Source: Aphanocapsa sp. GSE-SYN-MK-11-07L
GTDB lineage: Bacteria; Cyanobacteriota; Cyanobacteriia; Thermosynechococcales; Thermosynechococcaceae
Assembly (NCBI GenBank): GCA_019359715.1
Contig: JAHHGS010000126.1
Span: 1 to 32,071 of the forward strand
Reading direction: 5' to 3'
DNA length: 32,071 nt
The translations under genes were made by a program, and so were the position numbers. Shown here piece by piece: positions 636-30,088 of the stretch (the stretch's first letter is position 1; each line of letters opens with the position of its first letter). The notes beneath the pieces are model-generated. The model saw only the letters and a program-made list of their open reading frames with translations. It did no database searches and was not told the origin of the DNA.

Positions 636-1937
<1,302 letters not shown>

Positions 1938-2071: not shown

Positions 2072-5000
2072 TCAGAGATTTTCAATATCCTCAAACCGAG
2101 ATGCGTCAAAAATCTGCTCAGCGAAGCCTGGATCTTCTTGCAGTCTGCGAAATAAAGCAGGAATTTTGTCGTAATTTCGCTTGATAAATTCTTCTTCACT
2201 CTGGGGAATACGACCTGCTAAGTAAATGAGCTCCTCCTCATTTAGATTCAAAATCCGAGCGATCGCCCGGATCGCTTCTTCTTTAGGTGGGTATTCTGCT
2301 TTGTCGTTTTCTAGCTTTGAGAGATAGGTGAAGTTGAGATCAACAGCATCAGCTAATTCTCGTTGATTTAGCCCCTTCTCTTTTCTAGCTCTAAAGATGG
2401 CTTGCCCAAATGTTAGATCTGTGGAGTAATTCGATGAGTTTTCATTGAGTCGTTGTACTTGTTTTCCCTGCACCTCAACCCAGCCAATCAGTTGAGTGGA
2501 AAAGGCTCCTTGTGTTTCTGTCAATCCATGATGCTGTAGCTCTCGATTCAACATTGGTTCAAGATAATCTCGGAGCAAACGCTGACGCTCAGAGAGTTTG
2601 AGGAAAGGTAATGTAGGAGCTTGGAGCAGAATATCAGCTCCTTTGCGCTCTATAGCGGGCAAACGCTTGCCATTTGGGTTGATTGCCAAGGATTTCAGTA
2701 GGAGTCGTTGTTCACCATTTTGTCCCAACAGTTCAACCAGCCACCAGGTTAGGATAGCTGCTACCTCGTCATCCCCGTTTACAGAAGCTCCTAGTTCTTC
2801 AGGAACAACGTTCTGCCACTTCTCGATCGCTTTTTGCATAATGGGATGATCTAGCCCCATCAGGTCTAGACCGTCTTGTTCGCGAGCAAGTTCACGATTG
2901 GTTGTGAAGCGCAAAACTTTCTCTCCTAGCTCATTGTGTAGCTCGTAGATGCCATTGCTAACTCGCACAATAGTTTGTTTCTTCTCCTCCAGTGCAGCAG
3001 ACAAAAAACGAATTAGGCGATCCATGCTGGCACTTACGTCAGCGAAGGGTTTGTAGTCCTCTAAGTTAAAGTCTTCTAAAGCTTGAAACAGATCGAAAAC
3101 AACCTTGCGAGCTTCCGCCGCATTTGACAAAGCATCTGCCAGTTCGTGAGTGGTTCGTTGCAAATCTGGATCAGAAAGTGCATCCTGGTAGAGCCGTTCA
3201 TAGTTGAGGCGTTCAGAGAGTTGTCCCAGAATTTGGGAGCGAAAGTTTTCTATAACATTGCCGCTATTATCGACTTTGCCAACAGCTTTAGCAATTTCTT
3301 CTAGCTTTTTATCTAAAAGAAGAAATATTTGTCCTTCAATCGTGTCAGATAGGACAAGGTTATAAACCTGTGCCGTGTGCTTCTGACCATACCGATGAAT
3401 TCGCCCAATCCGCTGTTCAATATCCATCGGATTCCACGGCAGATCAAAGTTGAAGAGAATTCGAGCAAACTGCAAGTTAATTCCCTCACGACCGGCTGCG
3501 GTACAAACTAAGACCTTGGGGCCGCTTTTTAGCCGAAACTTGCGTTCTGCTGCTAGTTTTGAACCGTGATCACCGCCCCTTAGAACAACCACACCTTGCC
3601 CAGGATATTTAGCTTCGATTTCTCGTGATAGCAAATCAACAGTGCCAAGATAGGTGGCAAAAATGACGATTTTTTCGTTGGGGTCATTCTTCCACAGTGC
3701 TCCTAAAGCGTTGAGAAGCTTTTCAACTTTGGTTTCACGCTGTTCTGGAAAGAATTTCAGTAAGGAACGGATGCGATCGCGTTCCTCTGGCAACGCCAAC
3801 TTAACAAAGGCTGTGGCGGCTGATTCAGCGTTCGCAGCATCAAGCTCGCTGGCATAGGAGTCTGAACCAAGCTCTAATTCTCCATCGTCAATTTTTTTGA
3901 CGATCGCTAGCTTCAGGTCAGCGAGTGTCCGGTCAACCTCACCCCAACCAACGGGGCCATCTTTGAATCCATATTCCTGCTGAATGATTTGGCGCGCTTC
4001 ATCATAGAGGGTTTCCCGTGTATCGATGTCTTTTTCCTGATCGCGCAGAACTGCCTCATAGACTGTCAGCATCAATAGGCGACGTTGCAGGGTACTCCGA
4101 ACAGCCGCAAAGCTGGAAGCCGCAATCTTTTGAAAAATTGCCATGATGAATCCCAGCGCCCGTCCCTGATTCCCTGTTTTCTTGGCTAGGGCAAAGCCGT
4201 CTTCTAGATATTCCCGGAGTTCACGGTAAAAGTCTCGTTCAGGATCGGACATGGTGAAGGATTCGGTCTTTACCTGTCGTCGAGCAAATAAGGGCGAACC
4301 ATCAGGCTTACAGGCTTCTGCTTTGGTACGGCGAAACATCACCTCATTCAGGCGATGCCGATTTTCAATCATGTCGTCTGGATTTCTAAACAGCGTGGAA
4401 TTGAGGATCTGAATCAGCATCCAAAACCGAAAATGGTCGCCCTGGTGGGGGGTGGCAGAGAGCAGCACTAAATCGCGGGTATGTCCTTTGAGGGCCTCTG
4501 CCAGTTTGTAGTTCTCAGTTTTGCGAACTTTGTTGCCGCTCTTGAAAGCATTGACATGGTGGGCTTCGTCAAACACGATCAAATCCCAGGCTTTAGCATC
4601 CAGCAGTTTTTTGATCCGGGCTGGGCGCTTGAGGGTGTCAATGCTGGCAATCAGGCGATCGTGCTTGGCAAAAGCATTAGATTTGCGATCGGTGACATCC
4701 CCTTCGCTACCAAACACTTCAAAATTAAGGTTGAAAACCTCGTTTAGTTCACGATGCCAGTTGTTGACGAGTCCAGCGGGTACCACCATCAGGGCGCGGT
4801 CTAACTCACCTCGGCTGGCGAGTTCTCGGAGAAGTAGGGCTGTTTCAATCGTTTTACCCAGGCCTACTTCGTCTGCCACCAGGTATCGGCGAGGACTGGC
4901 GGTTGCAATCCGGTGGGTGAGGACAACCTGATGGGGCAAAAGGTCAATTTTGGCAGCCGTAAGCGCCGCCGCACTTTCCATCAGGGGAATGGCGTGGGCT

Positions 5001-5239
5001 TCGTGGACTAGCCAGAGTTGCTTGAGCCGATCCCATGTGCCAGCAACCCCTTGAATGATCCGGTCGTTGCGGGAGAGTTGGGGGCGGACTGAGGCGATCG
5101 CTACCTGGCGTTCTCCACTGCCAAAAAATACTCGGACGTATCCATCGCGGGGCACCTCAACCACAACCCCATCCCCAAATTCGCTGTGGGTGACTCGTTT
5201 GCCAGGTTGTAGGATAGTTTCCAAAAGTTCGATATCCAT
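2072..5239 (-). CDS. SNF2-family helicase with Tudor-like N-terminus and C-terminal XRE helix-turn-helix
   Basis: This is a 1055-aa superfamily 2 DNA translocase. Visible motifs: Walker A DEVGLGKT (residues 123-130), DEAH (224-227), motif III SAT (261-263), and helicase-C with GREGINLQ and the arginine-finger motif QRIGRIHRYGQ (609-619). Residues 12-52 (GKRVTHSEFGDGVVVEV) resemble the small Tudor/CarD-like fold found at the C-terminus of PcrA/UvrD. Residues about 944-1010 form a typical XRE/HTH_3 domain (RKEKGLNQRELADAVDL, then YLSKLEN). That fusion is unusual and suggests DNA targeting or autoregulation. It is the last gene of the defence operon, 49 bp after the 173-aa gene, with an AGGA ribosome-binding site. 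SNF2 helicases of this type occur in BREX (brxHII-like) and DISARM (drmD-like) systems; the neighbours favour the former. The substrate is unknown. Confidence 0.88.
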   Translation of the reverse strand: MDIELLETILQPGKRVTHSEFGDGVVVEVPRDGYVRVFFGSGERQVAIASVRPQLSRNDRIIQGVAGTWDRLKQLWLVHEAHAIPLMESAAALTAAKIDLLPHQVVLTHRIATASPRRYLVADEVGLGKTIETALLLRELASRGELDRALMVVPAGLVNNWHRELNEVFNLNFEVFGSEGDVTDRKSNAFAKHDRLIASIDTLKRPARIKKLLDAKAWDLIVFDEAHHVNAFKSGNKVRKTENYKLAEALKGHTRDLVLLSATPHQGDHFRFWMLIQILNSTLFRNPDDMIENRHRLNEVMFRRTKAEACKPDGSPLFARRQVKTESFTMSDPERDFYRELREYLEDGFALAKKTGNQGRALGFIMAIFQKIAASSFAAVRSTLQRRLLMLTVYEAVLRDQEKDIDTRETLYDEARQIIQQEYGFKDGPVGWGEVDRTLADLKLAIVKKIDDGELELGSDSYASELDAANAESAATAFVKLALPEERDRIRSLLKFFPEQRETKVEKLLNALGALWKNDPNEKIVIFATYLGTVDLLSREIEAKYPGQGVVVLRGGDHGSKLAAERKFRLKSGPKVLVCTAAGREGINLQFARILFNFDLPWNPMDIEQRIGRIHRYGQKHTAQVYNLVLSDTIEGQIFLLLDKKLEEIAKAVGKVDNSGNVIENFRSQILGQLSERLNYERLYQDALSDPDLQRTTHELADALSNAAEARKVVFDLFQALEDFNLEDYKPFADVSASMDRLIRFLSAALEEKKQTIVRVSNGIYELHNELGEKVLRFTTNRELAREQDGLDLMGLDHPIMQKAIEKWQNVVPEELGASVNGDDEVAAILTWWLVELLGQNGEQRLLLKSLAINPNGKRLPAIERKGADILLQAPTLPFLKLSERQRLLRDYLEPMLNRELQHHGLTETQGAFSTQLIGWVEVQGKQVQRLNENSSNYSTDLTFGQAIFRARKEKGLNQRELADAVDLNFTYLSKLENDKAEYPPKEEAIRAIARILNLNEEELIYLAGRIPQSEEEFIKRNYDKIPALFRRLQEDPGFAEQIFDASRFEDIENL

Positions 5240-5288: not shown

Positions 5289-5810
5289 TTAGGAGATTCT
5301 GGGCAGATGCAGCCCGATCCAGTCTTTGCCTTCTAAGTCTGTCTGGGGGTCGTTAACTGCCATGATGTGTCTAGCATCCGCTTCAGCTCCTGCCCACAGG
5401 GCTTGACCCAAGGGCAACCGTTGCCTGCCACTCGTTGATCCACAGAGCCACAGGTAAGTATTTGTCGCCCGTTGAACTTCAATCCGAGATCTTCCGCCTG
5501 GTAGCCAAAAGATAAGTGCTGCATCGCCCTGGTAATAATCTTGAAAGCTAAGCAGGGCAGACCGAAGTTTCTCTTCAAGCCACTGGGAGGCATCATCAGC
5601 AGTCAGGGCATCAAGGCTGGCATCTAACCCAGCTACGACAAGAGCATCACCATTGGCTGCGGGCAAGTCATCTTGCCATTGCCCAACTAGGTTGAAGAAT
5701 CGACGCATGGAAATAATCTGATCAGATTCTACAAGCTTGGATAAGGCGGTGACATCCCAGAGGAGGGAAAAGCCTTTGCGCGTCCAACCTGTCCCGAATA
5801 CTGGCTGCAT
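5289..5810 (-). CDS. Unrecognised 173-aa protein of the defence operon
   Basis: I do not recognise this family. The open frame starts at a TTG at 5828, but an in-frame ATG at 5810 has a strong GAGGAG ribosome-binding site that lies over the stop of the preceding methylase gene, so 173 aa is preferred. The protein is soluble-looking. It has a central helical region (TADDASQWLEEKLRSALL) followed by a hydrophobic strand ALIFWLPGG and an alternating strand/turn C-terminus. No Walker motif, nuclease motif, cysteine cluster or membrane segment is visible. Its place between the methylase and the helicase, with coupling to the methylase, argues that it is a dedicated subunit of the system. BrxF and DUF3780 are small proteins of related systems; I see no motif (such as the BrxF P-loop) that would support either. 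Confidence 0.6.
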   Translation of the reverse strand: MQPVFGTGWTRKGFSLLWDVTALSKLVESDQIISMRRFFNLVGQWQDDLPAANGDALVVAGLDASLDALTADDASQWLEEKLRSALLSFQDYYQGDAALIFWLPGGRSRIEVQRATNTYLWLCGSTSGRQRLPLGQALWAGAEADARHIMAVNDPQTDLEGKDWIGLHLPRIS

Positions 5811-5817
5811 GATGGCG

Positions 5818-7233
5818 TTACTCCTCAAACTCTAGTTGAATTGCATACGCAGCAGCTTGAGCCGATTTGTGGGAGGCTTGTATAGATTTAAGTACATCAT
5901 GCTCCTGACCACAAGTTGGGGATTTACAGACAAATGCCCCTTTGACAGGCTTAAGTTTTCCTTCTTCGCCAAGTCTGTAAGGAATTGTTCCTCCTCTTTG
6001 ATCTGTTTTGAATACATCACCTGTTTCTGGACAAGTAATTTCCTCATGAAGTTGACCACGCAACTCAATTAATTTCATCGTGGTAGCTCGCTCCCGATTC
6101 CATGCAATAGTTGCCTCAGGCGAATCAGTAACACTTCCCCCATACTCAGTTCCATCAGGTGCAGTTTTTGGTGAGCCTGCCAACCATTCAGGATGAACTA
6201 ACAAGTGAAGGGAAACCTTTTTGTTTTTCCATTTCTGGTTCACCATTCCCTTTGAGTTTTGTCGATGTTCACAGTGAGGGCAAATCACCATCTTGTCTTC
6301 ATCCAAGATCGCATAGGGCTTTTCATCCTCAGCTACTACTAACGGCACCCCCGGAGCCATGCGTGCTTCATCTCTCTCTTTATCAAACACACCACCACAC
6401 TGATCACATTCCCGGTCTTCCCACGCTTTCACCGTCAGGATCTTTACTGCCATCACCGGACTAGACATAATCGGAGTGCGATGGCCACACTCTCGAATTG
6501 AGCAAGGCCCATGCTTTGCCCAGAAAACGTAAATAATTTCGGGTCCCTGATAGCGGTAGTTTTTGCGCTGCTCTGGCGTCAGTGCCAGCGGATCAAACTC
6601 CTCGCTCACCACCTGATCCGTTGAAATCTGTGACCATTTGCCCTTGTGTCCTCTGGGGCAATCACAAGCGTAGAACGGCATGATTTGAGGCTTCACCTCT
6701 GTTTCAATATCTGCCAAGAGGGCTTTGACTTCTTCTATATCAACCTGGGCCAGCTCATTCTTCACCACAAACCAAGCCACCGGATTCAGGTCACAGCCAA
6801 ACATCTGCATCCCCAACCGGGAGCCTTCCACAACGGTTGTGCCGCCGCCCATGAAGATGTCAGCAACTTTGAGATGGCTGAGTGCGCCCTTCTTCTGATG
6901 GTTGGCATAGTAGACATCCCAAACCGCCTTCGCTGCCTCTGCTGGATCATCCGGAGCTTTCATACTGGCAGCCAATAGCATTGCCCGGAATACGCTGGAT
7001 CTACGCCTTGCCCACCACTTGGACATTTGATAGATTGGTTTACCTGCATTCCCTTCAATCGTGGCAATCTGATTAATCGGCAGAATTGGGAAGTCAACTT
7101 CTAGGCAGGTTTTTGGACGATTGGGATCAGAAAAGTCTACGGTTTCAACAGCAACTGCTCTGCCAGCTCCAACCGCTTTCGCAACTTCCTCTGCTAACCT
7201 CTCTTTCTTCGTCTTGTCGCCTTTACGAGCCAT
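5818..7233 (-). CDS. DUF1156 / Zn-ribbon adenine-specific DNA methylase, C-terminally truncated
   Basis: The N-terminal half matches the DUF1156 (COG1743-type) methylases: LEVDFPILPINQI and KWWARRRSSVFRAMLLA (about residues 45-88). A SAM-binding motif DIFMGGGTT and a downstream acidic CDLNP (125-152) follow, then several Cys pairs forming Zn-ribbons (ECDQC, ICPHC, FVCKSPTC). Family members are usually about twice this length (about 900-1000 aa from memory), with the catalytic (D/N)PPY motif in the second half. No PPY or PPF is present here, and the protein stops just after AAYAIQ, a point that is internal in homologues as I recall them. The intact enzyme would methylate adenine to mark self DNA. 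This copy may be inactive, a split subunit or a DNA-binding remnant. It is followed at once by the 173-aa gene. Confidence 0.8.
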   Translation of the reverse strand: MARKGDKTKKERLAEEVAKAVGAGRAVAVETVDFSDPNRPKTCLEVDFPILPINQIATIEGNAGKPIYQMSKWWARRRSSVFRAMLLAASMKAPDDPAEAAKAVWDVYYANHQKKGALSHLKVADIFMGGGTTVVEGSRLGMQMFGCDLNPVAWFVVKNELAQVDIEEVKALLADIETEVKPQIMPFYACDCPRGHKGKWSQISTDQVVSEEFDPLALTPEQRKNYRYQGPEIIYVFWAKHGPCSIRECGHRTPIMSSPVMAVKILTVKAWEDRECDQCGGVFDKERDEARMAPGVPLVVAEDEKPYAILDEDKMVICPHCEHRQNSKGMVNQKWKNKKVSLHLLVHPEWLAGSPKTAPDGTEYGGSVTDSPEATIAWNRERATTMKLIELRGQLHEEITCPETGDVFKTDQRGGTIPYRLGEEGKLKPVKGAFVCKSPTCGQEHDVLKSIQASHKSAQAAAYAIQLEFEE

Positions 7234-7337: not shown

Positions 7338-7988
7338 TTATCTAGTTCCATTCCGACCATCTTGCTGTACCAACGCCACCAAGTGCTTCAGAATTCCCAA
7401 AACTGTGTAGAGTTCATTGCCGGGATTGACCAAACTGAATAACCGGGAAAGCGCATATCGTGGGACAGGTTGTCGAATGAGCTTGATAAATAAAAAATTC
7501 CTGCCATTGGTGATCATGCCAAATGTGGGTTTTTCAACTACGGGGTTTGCCAGCATATAGGACAGCAGTTGTGCCCTTCCTTCATCCACATCCACCGCTG
7601 CTCGCTTTGCCTCAATCACCATCACCCACAGTTTTTCCCATAAGACCAACACATCCACATCGCCACGAATCACCGTGCCCTCGTCTTCAGTCATAATTTC
7701 AAAGGACGGCTCTGACTTGATGTGAAAGGGTTTTTGGTAGACATTCACTAGATCCAGTAACGGAGACAATACCACCAGCTTGACTGTGTTCTCTAACAGG
7801 GGAGGATATTCCAGTAAATCTAAAAAGTTTGATTTGACCCGATCAAGGCGTTCTCTCTCGGTGTGCGCCACGTCTGGCAAGTTATCCTGCCATTCCCAGA
7901 AAAACTGCTCATTGTCCGTGAGTTCCAATCCAAAGCGATCGCTTAACTCACCTAGGGTCACATTTCTTGCTTGCAGAATCTGCACCAT
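7338..7988 (-). CDS. PD-(D/E)xK nuclease-like protein (HsdR N-terminal type), copy A
   Basis: This 216-aa protein resembles the small stand-alone proteins related to the N-terminal nuclease domain of type I restriction subunit HsdR that are common in cyanobacteria. The putative catalytic set is D112 (GDVDVL) and E126-x-K128 (VIEAKRA), followed by the helix GRAQLLSYMLANP and the strand FGMITNGRNFLFIK, as in that fold. It is about 60% identical by eye to the gene immediately upstream, so the two are tandem duplicates. It starts at an ATG with a GGAG ribosome-binding site, 56 bp after copy B and 104 bp before the methylase. Such proteins have no established function. Within this operon it is a candidate nuclease effector. 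Confidence 0.72.
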   Translation of the reverse strand: MVQILQARNVTLGELSDRFGLELTDNEQFFWEWQDNLPDVAHTERERLDRVKSNFLDLLEYPPLLENTVKLVVLSPLLDLVNVYQKPFHIKSEPSFEIMTEDEGTVIRGDVDVLVLWEKLWVMVIEAKRAAVDVDEGRAQLLSYMLANPVVEKPTFGMITNGRNFLFIKLIRQPVPRYALSRLFSLVNPGNELYTVLGILKHLVALVQQDGRNGTR

Positions 7989-8044: not shown

Positions 8045-8680
8045 TTATTTGCCCTGATCAGTCATCTGTCCCAGGTACTTCAGAATTTTGAGAACTTCAT
8101 ATAAGTCATGCCCTGGATTAAATAAGTCAAAAACCCGCGAGAGACCATATCGCGGAGCTGGTTGAGACACTAATTTTACAAAGCGAAAACTACTACCATT
8201 CGTGAGCAATCCAAATGTAGATAGTGCCGACTTGGGATTTGCCAACATGTAAGACAGTAGCTGCGCTCGACCCGCCTCTAGGGAAAACTCAGCATTTTTC
8301 GATTCGATGCTGACGACCCAAACCTGCTTGCATAGCGCCAACACATCAAGCTGCCCTCGGATGATCATCCCCCCATCTTCCGTGGTGATTTCGATCGAGG
8401 GTTCAGACTTGATATGAAAGGGCGGCAAATAGAAATCTGCCATGTCCAGTAAGGGGGAGAGGACGACCATCTTCACGGTGTCCTCCAGTAGAGGAGGATA
8501 TTCCAGCAGATTAGAAAAGCTCGACTTGACGCGATCGAGCCGTTGCTTTTCTGCTGCCGTTATCTCTGTCAGGTCAACTTGCCACTCCGGGAAAAACTGC
8601 TCGTCTTCGGTCAGTTCCAAGTTGAAGCGATCGCTCAACTCACCCAGAGTCACATTTTTTGCTTGCAGGGTCTGCACCAT
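8045..8680 (-). CDS. PD-(D/E)xK nuclease-like protein (HsdR N-terminal type), copy B
   Basis: This is a 211-aa paralogue of the following gene, alignable without gaps through the core. D112 (GQLDVL) and E126-x-K128 (SIESKNA) are kept, so the acidic/lysine triad survives in both copies. The residue two before D112 changes from Asp in copy A to Gln here, and the post-lysine residue from Arg to Asn, so the copies may have diverged in activity. The ATG start has a GCGGAGC ribosome-binding site and lies 23 bp after pglZ. The shared N-terminus (NVTLGELSDRF) looks like a small oligomerisation or recognition helix. A pair of different subunits forming a heterodimer is possible; I infer this only from the retained duplication. 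Confidence 0.72.
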   Translation of the reverse strand: MVQTLQAKNVTLGELSDRFNLELTEDEQFFPEWQVDLTEITAAEKQRLDRVKSSFSNLLEYPPLLEDTVKMVVLSPLLDMADFYLPPFHIKSEPSIEITTEDGGMIIRGQLDVLALCKQVWVVSIESKNAEFSLEAGRAQLLSYMLANPKSALSTFGLLTNGSSFRFVKLVSQPAPRYGLSRVFDLFNPGHDLYEVLKILKYLGQMTDQGK

Positions 8681-8703: not shown

Positions 8704-9693
8704 TCACGCTGGTTTAACCAGCTCAATGAATGGGGAAGCCATTTCCAGCACCGATAGCCCACCATGAGCTAGGGTTGGATAACCGCCTGCACTTCTCCAC
8801 TTCCGCCGTCCCAGCACAAATCGTTTCTGCCCATGCCGAGAAGTCAATACTAAGTCAACCGGGGGAAACCAGGCACTGCCACTGGTCACATCGTCAGATG
8901 AGCGCCCACTCCTAAACACATTTTTGAGATGTTTCGCTTGTTCCTCAGTTGCATCAGAGAATAGACCGCTGGCAGCATAGCCATGATCAGATGTGATAAC
9001 GAGCTGTCGCCCCAGCGTGAGGCGATCAATGAGATGCCAAAACTCAGGGCTGGTTAACTTACTCGCGGCTTCGGTTGCCAGTGCCCCCAGCCCTTTACCT
9101 GGGTCAGCAAAATCATGAATTCGGGAATCAGGCCACTGATGCCACAACACCCAGTTCGGCTCCAACCCAATTAAATCAAGGCAGTCTACCCAGGGAAGAT
9201 CAACACAATCCGTTTGCGCTCCCTGTAAGCGATGAGTTCGGCTGGCTCGGTTGTTTTCTAAATCGGAGCGTTGCCCAAAACCCAGTGCCTTTGCAAAAGG
9301 TGTTGTATCTCCTGGCAGTTCTGCCCCCGTCACCCTGGCAGAAACCTCAAACCCTCGTTCTTTGGCACCATACAGAATCCAGGGTGCTTCTCGGAGCGAA
9401 AGCCCATCTAGAATCAGCACCGCTTTTCCGGTCGGTTGCTCCCACCAATCTGTGAGAGCCTGCGATGTCTGCTCTACACTCTGCTCAAAGTCACGCCAGA
9501 GTTCCCATCCACTAGAGGAGAGTACCAAATCTAAATCTGCCAATGCGGCATCTCTTGCAATCACCTCTTTATCTACTGATTTAGTTGTCAGAGGCGGATT
9601 ACAAATATCCCAAGCATATTCAAAGATCGCTTTCCAGGCGCTAGCGGGAAGAGCTGTTTGAATTTTTTCGAGTAAGTAGCGGGGAGTAGCCAT
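8704..9693 (-). CDS. pglZ: Compact PglZ-domain protein (alkaline phosphatase superfamily)
   Basis: The 329-aa protein carries the PglZ signatures of the alkaline-phosphatase fold: VLILDGLSLREAPWIL, with the metal-binding D96; VITSDHGYA (D236, H237); and AHGGLSVLEMASPFIEL (H310), the typical PglZ C-terminal block. PglZ is the hallmark component of Pgl and BREX phage-defence systems, where it is required for protection although its substrate is not settled. Most BREX PglZ proteins are much longer (600-900 aa); this one is nearly the bare domain. Its ATG overlaps the stop of the upstream ATPase gene (TGATG), indicating translational coupling and probably a fixed ratio or complex with that ATPase. 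Confidence 0.85.
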   Translation of the reverse strand: MATPRYLLEKIQTALPASAWKAIFEYAWDICNPPLTTKSVDKEVIARDAALADLDLVLSSSGWELWRDFEQSVEQTSQALTDWWEQPTGKAVLILDGLSLREAPWILYGAKERGFEVSARVTGAELPGDTTPFAKALGFGQRSDLENNRASRTHRLQGAQTDCVDLPWVDCLDLIGLEPNWVLWHQWPDSRIHDFADPGKGLGALATEAASKLTSPEFWHLIDRLTLGRQLVITSDHGYAASGLFSDATEEQAKHLKNVFRSGRSSDDVTSGSAWFPPVDLVLTSRHGQKRFVLGRRKWRSAGGYPTLAHGGLSVLEMASPFIELVKPA

Positions 9694-12431
9694 CAGTTCT
9701 CCTCTTCTAGGTCGAGTTCATAGGTTAATCCATCCGGCAAGCTCTTCAGCAGCTTCTGAAGTTGTGCCCCAGTCAGTGCGCCCACTTTTAGGGAAAGATT
9801 TTGTATAGGTGTTGCAGGGCCGATTCTCCATTCATCAGATACCTTGGCATAGAGATTCAAAGCAGATGTAGCAGGAGCCGTCCGTCGTTCCACCCTCGTA
9901 GGTTGAGGATCGTCAAAAATTGAGCCACTGGATGGTTCATGTGCTCCAGGAACGGGCGACCATTGATCTGGATAACCACCTCCATTGGCATCTCCAGTAC
10001 CCTCTTGAGTGGGTGGTGGAGGAGTAACTTCGTCTGGTTTGCGATCGCTAGGTTTAGGCTGGAGAACTGCTGGTGGTTCAGATTGCCTCCCTGTTCCATC
10101 TGAACTGGGAACAGGCTGGGGCAATAAAATTTTCGTTTCATCCAAATGTTTGCCAGTGCCCAGTTTTCCCTTCATCCGATGCCAGGCAGTATCCTCATCC
10201 TCTCCAGGCTTTGCCTGTAAATACGCCATGCCGCGTAGGTCGATCGCAATTTCGCCACGGGCGCACACTCGCAGCAGCCTTTCTTTAACCTGGATTTCAC
10301 CTAGCCAAGGGATACAGTCTTTCCCTGATGGTCGCGGCTCCTGCAACTCGCGCAGCAGTTTACCGACTGAGTCGCTATTTGCTGCGGCATCCCGCACATA
10401 CTCCTCAAAATCTTCCGGGATGAAGACATCTTTGCGAATGCGCTCTTCAATCGCATCCGGAATCTTGTCTCCCTGAGTATTTACACCCTCAACGATAAAT
10501 TCACAGCGTTTGGAGTCAGCGTAATTCCAAATATTCAGTAGGGCAAAGCGATCAAACTGGGTTTTAAGTTTATCCTTCAGTTCTTTTTCATAGCGAGTCT
10601 TAATGCCTCGATATTCTGAGCTGTGGGCTTTCCACTGGTCTGCCACCATAATTGCTCGCGCCAAGACCAGCAGTTCCCGATCCTGATAAATATTTGTAGT
10701 TCCTGACTTGGGTAATAGAAACCGAATAGTATTCCGCAGTTTTTGTACATGCTCTTTTAACCAAGTGCCCAAGCGTTCGTTCAACTTTTCAGGTGCCTCT
10801 GGCAGGACAAGAATAGGTAGGCGATCGTCCCAGCGGTCTGGATGTTCAGACGGATCTAAAGTGCTCCAAGGATCTTTTAGCCAATTTTGTGGCAGAACGA
10901 TTACCCGAAACGCTCTGGCTATGGCTTCAGAACCGCCTAGAATGTAGCGAACTTGCTTTGCTAGTTGAGCATGATCAGACCCGTTTGTGAATAGTCGATC
11001 GTTGCGGGCATGGGCCATCAGCTTTGTGGTAGCGTTCTCACCCTCACGGAAAATGTATCGGTTGCCGCAGGCATGAATATTAAAACTGTTCTCTACGATC
11101 GTGGCTAACTCGACTTGAAAGGCATTATCGTCAATCGGCTGCGATCGAGTGATATCAATTTGAAGCGTCGCTGGTTCTGCACCAGCTAAATTTTCAACGG
11201 TGAGAGAGCGAAGCCATAATGCTCCCAATATTTCAGAAAGATGAGGAACGATAGCATCGGGATTGTTTACTGCATGTCTTACCGCAGTTAGATTGCGTTG
11301 AGCTTTTTCGCGCAAGTTAGCATGCTGTTGGTTTGTTACTGCATCTAATAAGCCAACCGCCTCGATAGTATTATCATCCAGTCTAAAATCAGCCGCTGTG
11401 ATAATTGGAAGTCCTTCGGAAGATTTGAACAGGTAAGCCAAAATTTTAATCAGCTCACGTGTTTCTTGAGCAGTTGTATTCACCATTACTTGGTCTTCAA
11501 GCAACTGTATCAACTCAGGTGAAAAGGGCCAAGACTCAAGAAATTCAGTTTTTCTCCGTTCTTGTTCGGCTGAAGACACTAATGCAAGACGGAAATACTC
11601 TGAAACATGGGGCTCAAGCAGCTTCTCAATTTGCTGTGACTTAATATCTAATCGATTCTCAAACAAGCGATGAAGTAAAAGGCGGCGGCGGTCATGAGAG
11701 GCGTGAGAACCCTTAAAATCTACTAATACTGGATGAACTCGATTTATTTGTTGAAAAGCATCTGTAGTGCCATCACGAACCGATATTACTAGAGCAAGTA
11801 GGTCTGGATACTCCTTTGAAATTTCAGATAAATTTTGGATGAAGCTAAATGCCCAGTTACGAGTAGGGCGTTGTTTGGTATCACTTAAACCATCAAACCA
11901 GGTTTGAAATTCATCCAGAATCAGTACAACTGGTCGATGCTGCAATAGCTCCAAAATAAGGTCGTATGGAGGTGAATCAGTTTTCTTATCCCCCATGCCC
12001 ACCCATTTTTCCTGGATATATTGACCATGTGGATGGAATTCAAAAAGTAGATTCCACAAATACTTGTGCTTCTGACGATTGAGATTAGAACTAATGACTA
12101 TTGCATTAGCACGAGGAGTCAAAGTAGCAAGCTTCGGTTCTTGTAACTGATTTGCCCAATGTTGTAACCAGTTTGCCGCAGCCGTTGGATTATTCAAGAT
12201 GTGATCCAAGGCTGCCATTAAATGAGACTTTCCCTGCCCCCGCGCACCCACAAGAACCACAGGGTAACCTTGTCCAGGAGTAATAGCCCCTATTGCATTA
12301 ATCAAGTCTGTAGAGGGATAAGTGATGTCTAAAAAAGCTCCGGCAGATAGCTTCTTTGCCTCTGCGATCTCAATTTGCGTACCCTTCAGGCGCTTGCCTT
12401 GGAACTCCTGACGTAGCTTTAATTCAAGCAT
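9693..12431 (-). CDS. Large P-loop ATPase of PglY/BrxC or DUF499 type
   Basis: The frame opens at a TTG at 12485, but the in-frame ATG at 12431 follows AAGAGGA and gives MLELKLRQEFQGKRLKGTQ, so a 912-aa protein is preferred. Walker A is GARGQGKSH (62-70) and Walker B is VVLILDEFQTWF (168-179). The aromatic DEFQTW block followed by a long helical region and no second ATPase domain is like the giant ATPases PglY/BrxC and the DUF499 proteins that accompany PglZ and adenine methylases in defence loci. I cannot separate these families without a profile search. The region from about residue 740 to 860 is Pro/Gly/Ser-rich and probably a disordered linker to a small C-terminal domain. It is the first gene of the operon and is coupled to pglZ by a 1-nt overlap. 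Confidence 0.8.
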   Translation of the reverse strand: MLELKLRQEFQGKRLKGTQIEIAEAKKLSAGAFLDITYPSTDLINAIGAITPGQGYPVVLVGARGQGKSHLMAALDHILNNPTAAANWLQHWANQLQEPKLATLTPRANAIVISSNLNRQKHKYLWNLLFEFHPHGQYIQEKWVGMGDKKTDSPPYDLILELLQHRPVVLILDEFQTWFDGLSDTKQRPTRNWAFSFIQNLSEISKEYPDLLALVISVRDGTTDAFQQINRVHPVLVDFKGSHASHDRRRLLLHRLFENRLDIKSQQIEKLLEPHVSEYFRLALVSSAEQERRKTEFLESWPFSPELIQLLEDQVMVNTTAQETRELIKILAYLFKSSEGLPIITAADFRLDDNTIEAVGLLDAVTNQQHANLREKAQRNLTAVRHAVNNPDAIVPHLSEILGALWLRSLTVENLAGAEPATLQIDITRSQPIDDNAFQVELATIVENSFNIHACGNRYIFREGENATTKLMAHARNDRLFTNGSDHAQLAKQVRYILGGSEAIARAFRVIVLPQNWLKDPWSTLDPSEHPDRWDDRLPILVLPEAPEKLNERLGTWLKEHVQKLRNTIRFLLPKSGTTNIYQDRELLVLARAIMVADQWKAHSSEYRGIKTRYEKELKDKLKTQFDRFALLNIWNYADSKRCEFIVEGVNTQGDKIPDAIEERIRKDVFIPEDFEEYVRDAAANSDSVGKLLRELQEPRPSGKDCIPWLGEIQVKERLLRVCARGEIAIDLRGMAYLQAKPGEDEDTAWHRMKGKLGTGKHLDETKILLPQPVPSSDGTGRQSEPPAVLQPKPSDRKPDEVTPPPPTQEGTGDANGGGYPDQWSPVPGAHEPSSGSIFDDPQPTRVERRTAPATSALNLYAKVSDEWRIGPATPIQNLSLKVGALTGAQLQKLLKSLPDGLTYELDLEEEN

Positions 12432-12544
12432 TCGAGCAGATCCTCTTAAATCCAATCTATACACATAACATTCCCAAAATCCCAAATCTGTTTTGATTCA
12501 GATCTGTGACTGCTGGCAGTCAGTACTAGTAGTGCCCTAAATCC

Positions 12545-28817: not shown

Positions 28818-29669
28818 TCAACTATGAAAGGGGATTGACAGCAAGGGCAGCCACACAAGCAGCAACCAGCCCCACGACCAAAGATTAGTTTGCAGGTGTC
28901 TCTGCGGGGCTGCGTCTGTGAAGAGGGCTTCGATTCTTTGCATCAGACGGCTGGGCGGTGCAACACTGCTGAAAGCGGCACAGATATTTTGATCTAAGAT
29001 CGGTGGGGTGCTGACGACCAACAGCAAAGCCTCTGCTAGCAGTAGGGCATCGGTCTGCTCAGCAACCCAACGGTCAGCCCGCAGTTCTCTCAGCACCAGC
29101 AACTCCTGCCAAACGGAGTCGCTCTGGGGCAGCCAGGCAGTCAGCCGGCGGGCCCAGCCCAACCAGAAAAACCAGAAGGTATCGCGGTAATAATGGTGGG
29201 CCTGCTCATGGAGCAACACTGCCTCTAGATGGGGATAATCTAACTTATCTAGTAGGCCCTGGCTGACCACTAATTCCGGCTGCCAAAACCCAACCTGGGC
29301 ACTGTAAGGCATTGCCAAATCGAGTACCCGAACAGATCTGCCCAGAAGCTCAGTTTGGGGATAAGCGCGAATCTGTTGCAGGGTGCGTTGACCTTGCCAA
29401 ATCAGATGCAGCCAGCAAACCGCCGCCAAACTCAAAAACCCGATCGCTAGGACATAGCTCAACCAGCCTTCCCATAGCCAGACCATTTGTCCTTGCGGGC
29501 CCATCCAAATCACCGCGATCGCAGAGGTCAGCATCAGCAAAGGCGCAAATAGCAGCCCTTTTAGCCCCTGCTGCCAGCGCTCTGACCAATCAGCGCTGGT
29601 ATCGACTGTCCAAAAATAACGAAGCCCCCAGGACACTCCCAATCCGCTGAGTAGAATTAGCAGATGCAT
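28818..29669 (-). CDS. M56-family membrane metallopeptidase (BlaR1/MecR1-like protease part)
   Basis: The 283-aa protein has hydrophobic N- and C-terminal helices around a zinc-protease motif HEQAHH (H154, E155, H158) and the downstream E195 in LRELRADRW, the M56 pattern. In BlaR1/MecR1 this domain cleaves the BlaI/MecI repressor after the C-terminal penicillin-binding sensor is acylated. Here no sensor domain is present; the protein ends shortly after a last membrane helix. It starts within the stop of the blaI-like gene (TAATG), so the two form a coupled regulator/protease pair. The signal it responds to is unknown. Confidence 0.87.
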   Translation of the reverse strand: MHLLILLSGLGVSWGLRYFWTVDTSADWSERWQQGLKGLLFAPLLMLTSAIAVIWMGPQGQMVWLWEGWLSYVLAIGFLSLAAVCWLHLIWQGQRTLQQIRAYPQTELLGRSVRVLDLAMPYSAQVGFWQPELVVSQGLLDKLDYPHLEAVLLHEQAHHYYRDTFWFFWLGWARRLTAWLPQSDSVWQELLVLRELRADRWVAEQTDALLLAEALLLVVSTPPILDQNICAAFSSVAPPSRLMQRIEALFTDAAPQRHLQTNLWSWGWLLLVWLPLLSIPFHS

Positions 29670-30088
29670 TATTGCTCCTCCCTAGCTTGACGAAGGGCTT
29701 GCAGTTTCTCAGCGATCGCGTTGATTTGTTCCAAACTGGCTTGATCGAGGCTATCGGCAAAGGCTGCGACAATATCAGGATTTCCGACTGCTAAAAATCG
29801 CTGCAACTGCTCGTAAGCTTCTAGGGCGGCCGCTTCTTGCCGAGAGATCAACGGTTGCCAACTGAAGCTGCGATCGCTCTTATCGCAAGTCAACCAGCCT
29901 TTCTGCGTCAGCCGATTTAAAACAGTGGTGACGGAGGCGTAGGACAGCTCCCGATCAGGGTCAGTCAAAATTCGCTCGTGCACATCCTTGACGCTAACCG
30001 TCCCGAGTTCCCAGATGATCGTTAAAATCTCAGTCTCCAGCGGCCCCAGCGAAAGCTGTTGAGGGCGGTAGTCAGGCAGTGGAACCAT
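29669..30088 (-). CDS. BlaI/MecI/CopY-family transcriptional repressor
   Basis: The 139-aa winged-helix protein contains LGPLETEILTIIWELGTVSV, then RELSYASVTTVLNRLTQKGWL, the characteristic recognition helix and wing, and a C-terminal helical dimerisation part (LDQASLEQINAIAEKLQALRQ). Family members repress their own operon and are inactivated by proteolysis or metal. It is the first gene of a two-gene unit with the M56 protease, its likely regulator. Targets beyond this operon are not visible; the beta-lactamase-like gene is 15 kb away and not obviously linked. Confidence 0.9.
   Translation of the reverse strand: MVPLPDYRPQQLSLGPLETEILTIIWELGTVSVKDVHERILTDPDRELSYASVTTVLNRLTQKGWLTCDKSDRSFSWQPLISRQEAAALEAYEQLQRFLAVGNPDIVAAFADSLDQASLEQINAIAEKLQALRQAREEQ

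Follow-up and report, generated by a model that had tools for sequence, protein, structure and literature searches.

An in-frame methylase deletion in a Type-3 BREX-related operon of Aphanocapsa and the probable silencing of the system

The stretch of cyanobacterial DNA analyzed here (32,071 nucleotides, hereafter the window) carries an operon of Type-3 BREX-related (BR) composition. Its methylase gene appears to have lost about 600 codons in one in-frame deletion, and the resulting system is probably off and not self-destructive. We assign this combined reading a probability of about 0.75. The locus would then be a naturally occurring knock-out of the methylase, precisely placed, in a BREX-related operon with its remaining core genes apparently intact.

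The truncated methylase and the deletion junction

The methylase gene (7233..5818, minus strand) encodes 471 aa and was identified as a truncated DUF1156 adenine methylase by Pfam, tblastn, and alignment to relatives. Residues 1–466 correspond to the N-terminal part of the family and include DUF1156 (Pfam match at residues 48–96, E = 2.8e-6), motif I (ADIFMGGGTTVVEGSRL), and most of the Zn-ribbon insert. An earlier, sequence-only reading of this DNA had proposed that the N-terminal domain, SAM motif, and Zn-ribbons were kept, and these matches bear it out. A model of DUF1156 antiphage methylases gave a partial match at residues 121–155, and profile NF042963 scored the fragment at 35 bits against a cut-off of 1000. 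There is no PP pair anywhere in the 471-aa protein and hence neither (D/N)PPY nor DPPF. The earlier statement that (D/N)PPY is missing is correct for the fragment, but motif IV of this family is DPPF and not (D/N)PPY.

A scan of the genome collection with the methylase returned 199 confirmed stretches, and the best 80 of the 199 were fetched (57–69% identity by best segment). Among these best 80, 76 encode proteins of 1,061–1,135 aa, counted from the start of the match. DPPF was present in 77 of the same 80, at 674–742 residues from the match start; its carriers are the 76 full-length relatives and locus L062, which switches frame near residue 826. The three loci without DPPF (L037, L055, and L081) are short and stop close to a contig end. 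One of them, L055, ends in ~360 bases without methylase similarity and may be a true interruption. All six viral-contig loci are full length (1,066–1,094 aa). The methylase also matched 37 plasmid records, and the one annotated copy inspected is 1071 aa from its coordinates. Another class, sampled with 369 genomes, yielded three matches at E = 1e-100, including the centre genome G633; the frames holding two of the three are 1088 and 1112 aa long, and the third, in G834, covers residues 8–280 only, in a 301-aa frame. A naturally short family of ~470-aa homologues, which the sequence-only reading had named as a possible objection to itself, was looked for and not met among the best 80 of 199 genome loci and the six viral-contig loci. 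Compared with full-length DUF1156 methylases, the window protein has neither the length nor a DPPF or DPPY motif, and the proposal that its catalytic half is missing holds.

Predicted structures indicate what was lost. In the model of a full-length relative, L023 (mean pLDDT 67.7, pTM 0.47), the part deleted from the window protein contains the DPPF strand (684–689), further strands at 763–775, 793–802, and 823–831, and a mainly helical C-terminus (841–1078). Section 29 of PMC12839542 describes HTH-like domains for this helical part. A Foldseek search with the full-length L023 model listed DNA methylases first, at E = 2.3e-3 or worse, with none at 1e-3. In the model of the truncated protein, the Zn-ribbon insert is mostly at pLDDT 70–93, and DUF1156 and motif I are poorly modeled. 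Because the full-length control is equally low in confidence at the motif-I region, the structure models say nothing on SAM binding.

We located the break against the syntenic, 86% identical copy in G036, a second genome from the class of the host; G036 served as a stand-in for the unknown ancestor, and the ancestral allele was inferred from it. The window protein follows G036 up to YAIQ, and its next and last residues (467–471, LEFEE, then stop) agree with the final codons of the G036 C-terminal half (QLEFGE, then stop), corresponding to the ancestral C-terminal tail. The junction maps to 5836..5840 on the minus strand, where GCAATTCAA is joined to CTAGAGTTT, and TTCA (5840–5837) is common to both breakpoint contexts in G036. 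Comparison with full-length relatives, a check that the sequence-only reading had suggested, placed the breakpoint at residue 466: 79 of the 80 tblastn matches (best 80 of 199) end at this query residue and one at 464. Since L023 has 627 residues past the same point, the in-frame loss amounts to about 600 codons. Collectively, these alignments indicate that one in-frame internal deletion of about 600 codons took motif IV and the helical C-terminus.

A frameshift origin was rejected, as what follows the junction is the ancestral C-terminus, read in its ancestral frame; the earlier reading had likewise argued against a fresh frameshift. Its description of a protein ending abruptly after AAYAIQ was right about the position of the break and wrong about what follows, as LEFEE is not random sequence but the ancestral last residues. 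Nor could a sequencing error conceal a longer protein, since no frame can restore ~600 missing codons. One interpretation did not survive. The ribosome-binding site placed over the methylase stop had been taken as a sign of a re-adapted, stable join. The next gene starts within 30 nt of the methylase stop in 71 of 76 relatives, 42 of which have a 4-nt overlap between the two. Because a start at the methylase stop is the rule, the arrangement is inherited, and it came with the retained last codons. Such a deletion would arise by illegitimate recombination at a few shared bases, and the retained frame, stop, and overlapping ribosome-binding region would leave the two downstream genes translatable.

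Composition and distribution of the operon

Read leftwards on the minus strand, the operon encodes a DUF499 protein, a PglZ-like protein, two HSDR_N-like proteins, the methylase, a 179-aa protein, and an SNF2 helicase. The order DUF499, PglZ, methylase, small gene, SNF2 recurs in 76 of the best 80 of 199 loci; three loci lack the two downstream genes, and one lacks the first and last genes. In the window, the four core genes other than the methylase equal their G036 counterparts in length.

The first gene (9693..12485) encodes a 930-aa AAA+ ATPase that matches DUF499 (PF04465, E = 1.6e-10) and AAA_16 (5.4e-7), the ATPase type of Type-3 BR. It is 74% identical to the G036 protein, a lower value than for the other core genes; of 292 family columns with at least 95% conservation, it deviates at 25 and the G036 protein at 14. 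A stand-alone PglZ-like protein of 329 aa follows (8704..9693). Its weak identification is based on invariant motif-like columns and distant profile matches. The window protein itself had no Pfam or PADLOC match; its orthologue at L023 weakly matched PADLOC PglZ (1.1e-3), and the family profile weakly matched response-regulator chains (E = 0.03), which we take to be PorX. The only match to the PglZ-like protein in a draw of 386 genomes of the phylum was the host; the G036 copy (88% identical) presumably lies outside that draw.

The 179-aa protein (5289..5828) is encoded downstream of the methylase and had no Pfam match and no family match in profile searches. By position and size, it fits the iSTAND (BrxB/BrxF-like) gene of Type-3 BR, the iSTAND label being positional. 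Orthologs lie downstream of the methylase in 77 of the best 80 of 199 loci, 76 of them in the full five-gene order. According to section 33 of PMC12839542, an iSTAND gene is present in the core Type-3 BR locus of 82% of taxa. The last gene (2072..5239) encodes a 1055-aa SNF2 helicase with an HTH near its C-terminus that resembles BrxH, Hma, and DrmD helicases. Its Pfam matches comprise SNF2, Helicase_C, ResIII, DEAD, and AAA_34 together with HTH families, and no nuclease family is among them, in keeping with the helicase without a fused nuclease of Type-3 BR. In PADLOC, BrxHI/BrxHII scored best (327 bits) and HmaA second (314 bits).

Two HSDR_N-like genes sit in tandem between the PglZ-like gene and the methylase. 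The first (7338..7988, minus strand, 216 aa) was identified by a profile match; the second (8045..8680, minus strand, 211 aa) is 63% identical to the first and scored 18.5 bits, below the cut-off of 25.1. G036 has one copy, and the 80 other loci (best 80 of 199) showed none at E = 1e-5. The space between PglZ and methylase exceeds 200 bases in 24 of 76 relatives, and on a Citrobacter IncN plasmid it holds SIR2 and ATP-binding genes; it is an accessory slot. The HSDR_N-like gene matches 28 plasmid records, with Leptolyngbya, Nostoc, and Planktothrix among the named genera, which we take to be cyanobacteria. Directly downstream of the operon, an S-adenosylhomocysteine hydrolase gene (636–1925, minus strand) is probably an ordinary neighbor. 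The window also encodes a phytochrome, which together with the plasmid matches points to a cyanobacterial host, and, at 28818–30088 (minus strand), a pair consisting of a BlaR1-like M56 peptidase (a weak match, below cut-off) and a penicillinase repressor.

By its composition, the locus fits a Type-3 BR operon. The N6-adenine methylase of this type comprises DUF1156, a core with motif IV, and a C-terminal HTH triad; in the window protein, DUF1156 is present, and motif IV and the C-terminal part are absent. On these sequence features, the methylase is a defective member, and the class of the operon rests on its other parts and on orthology with full-length relatives.

Few close relatives occur in the host's class. 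Some methylase match was found in 16 of 58 genomes near the host (host included), with high identity only in the host and G036 (86%); the next, G010, was 41% identical over residues 37–195. When 388 genomes of the class were drawn, host included, two had matches past E = 1e-30: the host and G036. G036 has the same operon, with the other four genes open at full length and the methylase split into frames of 632 and 425 aa separated by ~600 bases, 100 N included (L021, 10594–11186). The two pieces flanking the gap have 64 and 42 matches in the G036 genome (themselves included, mostly partial) and none in the host. They are repeated and, judging from these matches, probably mobile elements. The insert was also considered as an intron, and no Rfam match was obtained at the gathering threshold. 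Given the N gap, the split could partly be a matter of assembly. The methylase gene is broken in both of the carriers seen in the class, each time by a different event, and these two cases suggest that the methylase is the part lost in these hosts.

Consequences for the system and for the fragment

A fragment of this kind would be unable to methylate. In the Type-3 BR proposal, which comes from comparative genomics, the methylase marks self and PglZ is the main nuclease, working with the DUF499 ATPase and the helicase (PMC12839542). The sequence-only reading had argued that lost self-marking would make an active restriction arm toxic. The record from E. coli Type-1 BREX does not support this: deletion of brxX was without toxicity, and the motif-IV substitution Y511A in BrxX disrupted DNA binding and abolished defence and methylation, again without toxicity (PMC11842806). 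The methylase is the site sensor in that system (PMC11842806), and restriction by Acinetobacter Type-1 BREX requires all seven genes (PMC9122589). BREX-type systems would rely on the methylase itself for finding unmodified sites. Because the methylase would be the finder of such sites, its loss would turn the whole system off and not make it self-destructive, and the cell would tolerate it. In our analysis, the most likely state is a loss-of-function allele and a system that is silent without toxicity. The locus also argues against the view that loss of the self-mark must make the restriction arm toxic. The methylase of Streptomyces Pgl (Type 2) is reported to be toxic without PglZ, and its gene to be phase-variable (PMC4365076); therefore, the logic differs between BREX types. 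We found no Type-3 BR gene-deletion experiment in the open-licence literature, and the BREX precedents used here are Type-1.

We then compared the retained fragment with G036 for signs of decay. Of 176 columns with conservation of at least 95%, the fragment and G036 each deviate at one. Derived changes (window:G036) numbered 37:22 in the methylase versus 178:132 in the other four genes together (Fisher P = 0.47). Against the genes taken singly, P was 0.055 for the helicase (21:27), 0.27 for the small gene (14:4), 0.66 for the PglZ-like gene (19:14), and 0.65 for DUF499 (124:87). Other ways of counting gave 36:21 over 438 columns and, by family mode, 29:7 (14:4 in residues 391–466). Pairwise dN/dS between the window and G036 was 0.105 for the kept part of the methylase, with 0.058 for SNF2, 0.137 for PglZ-like, 0.163 for DUF499, and 0.20 for the small gene. 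Overall, relaxed selection on the fragment was not detected by conserved columns or by the derived-change ratio relative to the four other genes. By range, the derived changes were 17:14 in residues 1–390 and 20:8 in residues 391–466. The latter (5836–6063) form a fast-changing end with an 11-residue insertion and KSAQ in place of KTGP (as in G036), and the changes there may reflect an older relaxation or an older variant. From these alignments, the intact conserved positions fit a deletion that is young relative to the G036 split and fit continued use of the fragment equally well.

Continued use would mean that the fragment serves as a DNA-recognition or SAM-sensing subunit without catalysis and guides the DUF499/PglZ/helicase complex, while some other factor provides self-protection. 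The fragment retains the greater part of the target-recognition insert and its Zn ribbons, mostly predicted at pLDDT 70–93; conserved positions are retained, the in-frame deletion preserves downstream coupling, and the sensor role of the methylase in E. coli BREX (PMC11842806) would suit such a function. We nevertheless consider this unlikely. No relative of the truncated form was met among the best 80 of 199 genome loci and the six viral-contig loci, and the deletion took away motif IV together with the helical C-terminus, with the HTH-like domains of PMC12839542, section 29. In E. coli BrxX, Y511A alone was enough to disrupt DNA binding and abolish defence (PMC11842806), and an active system without a matching self-mark should attack its host. 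That a retained recognition subunit lets the BR system defend without its own self-mark, or by means of another methylase's marks, is distinctly unlikely.

An assembly artefact or minority variant, with a full-length gene really present in the genome, is very unlikely. The genome is a draft of 159 contigs and a single assembly, but the junction is internal to a 32-kb contig, 5.8 kb away from the contig end, and only a few bases are common to its two sides, presumably not enough to confuse an overlap assembler. A search of the host genome for the missing C-terminal half, also proposed by the sequence-only reading, was run with the G036 C-half and found no close copy, only distant methylases (best 28% identity). 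The middle third of the methylase had no match in the host genome, and the same search matched G036, G631, and G633. No contig holds a close copy of the missing parts in a genome rated 99.48% complete.

The chance that the system works with another host methylase in trans is slighter still: frames with DPPY occur on contig C54 (969 aa; L106, 2263–5172) and near the end of contig C37 (502 aa; L107, 5755–7263), but both are only 25–28% identical to the lost half and adjoin large helicase genes of their own, so they apparently fit other defence systems. A silent Type-3 BR operon is the reading that we prefer.

Comparison with known systems

The closest described system is Type-3 BR (Rakesh and Krishnan 2026, PMC12839542). 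Like it, the window has a DUF499 ATPase, a PglZ-like gene, a DUF1156 methylase with a large insert, a small extra gene, and an SNF2 helicase without a nuclease match. It differs in that the methylase is without motif IV and without the helical C-terminal part, that two HSDR_N-like genes stand between PglZ and methylase, and that the helicase ends with an HTH, which the helicase description in section 29 of that article does not name.

Hma (PADLOC HmaA/HmaB/HmaC) shares a helicase, a methylase, and an ATPase with the window. A full-length relative of the methylase matches HmaB best (119 bits), and the window helicase matches HmaA (314 bits, as above). However, Hma is defined by three genes (PMC12839542, section 28), whereas the operon here has five, including a PglZ-like gene and a small gene.

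Two precedents concern the methylase gene itself. In Streptomyces Pgl, defence is likewise switched off through a methylase gene, the phase-variable pglX (PMC4365076); the switch is reversible there through a G tract, whereas about 600 codons are gone from the window methylase. Interrupted BREX methylases have already been published, and the phenomenon is known in kind. A truncated or split pglX is described for a cyanobacterium, Ca. Regnicoccus frigidus, with interruption across diverse organisms, haloarchaea among them (PMC9716671). As in the window, a BREX-type methylase is broken there while other parts remain. Those cases are Type-1 genes truncated or split in MAGs, whereas in the window a BR-type operon has lost one internal piece of its methylase gene, cleanly and in frame.
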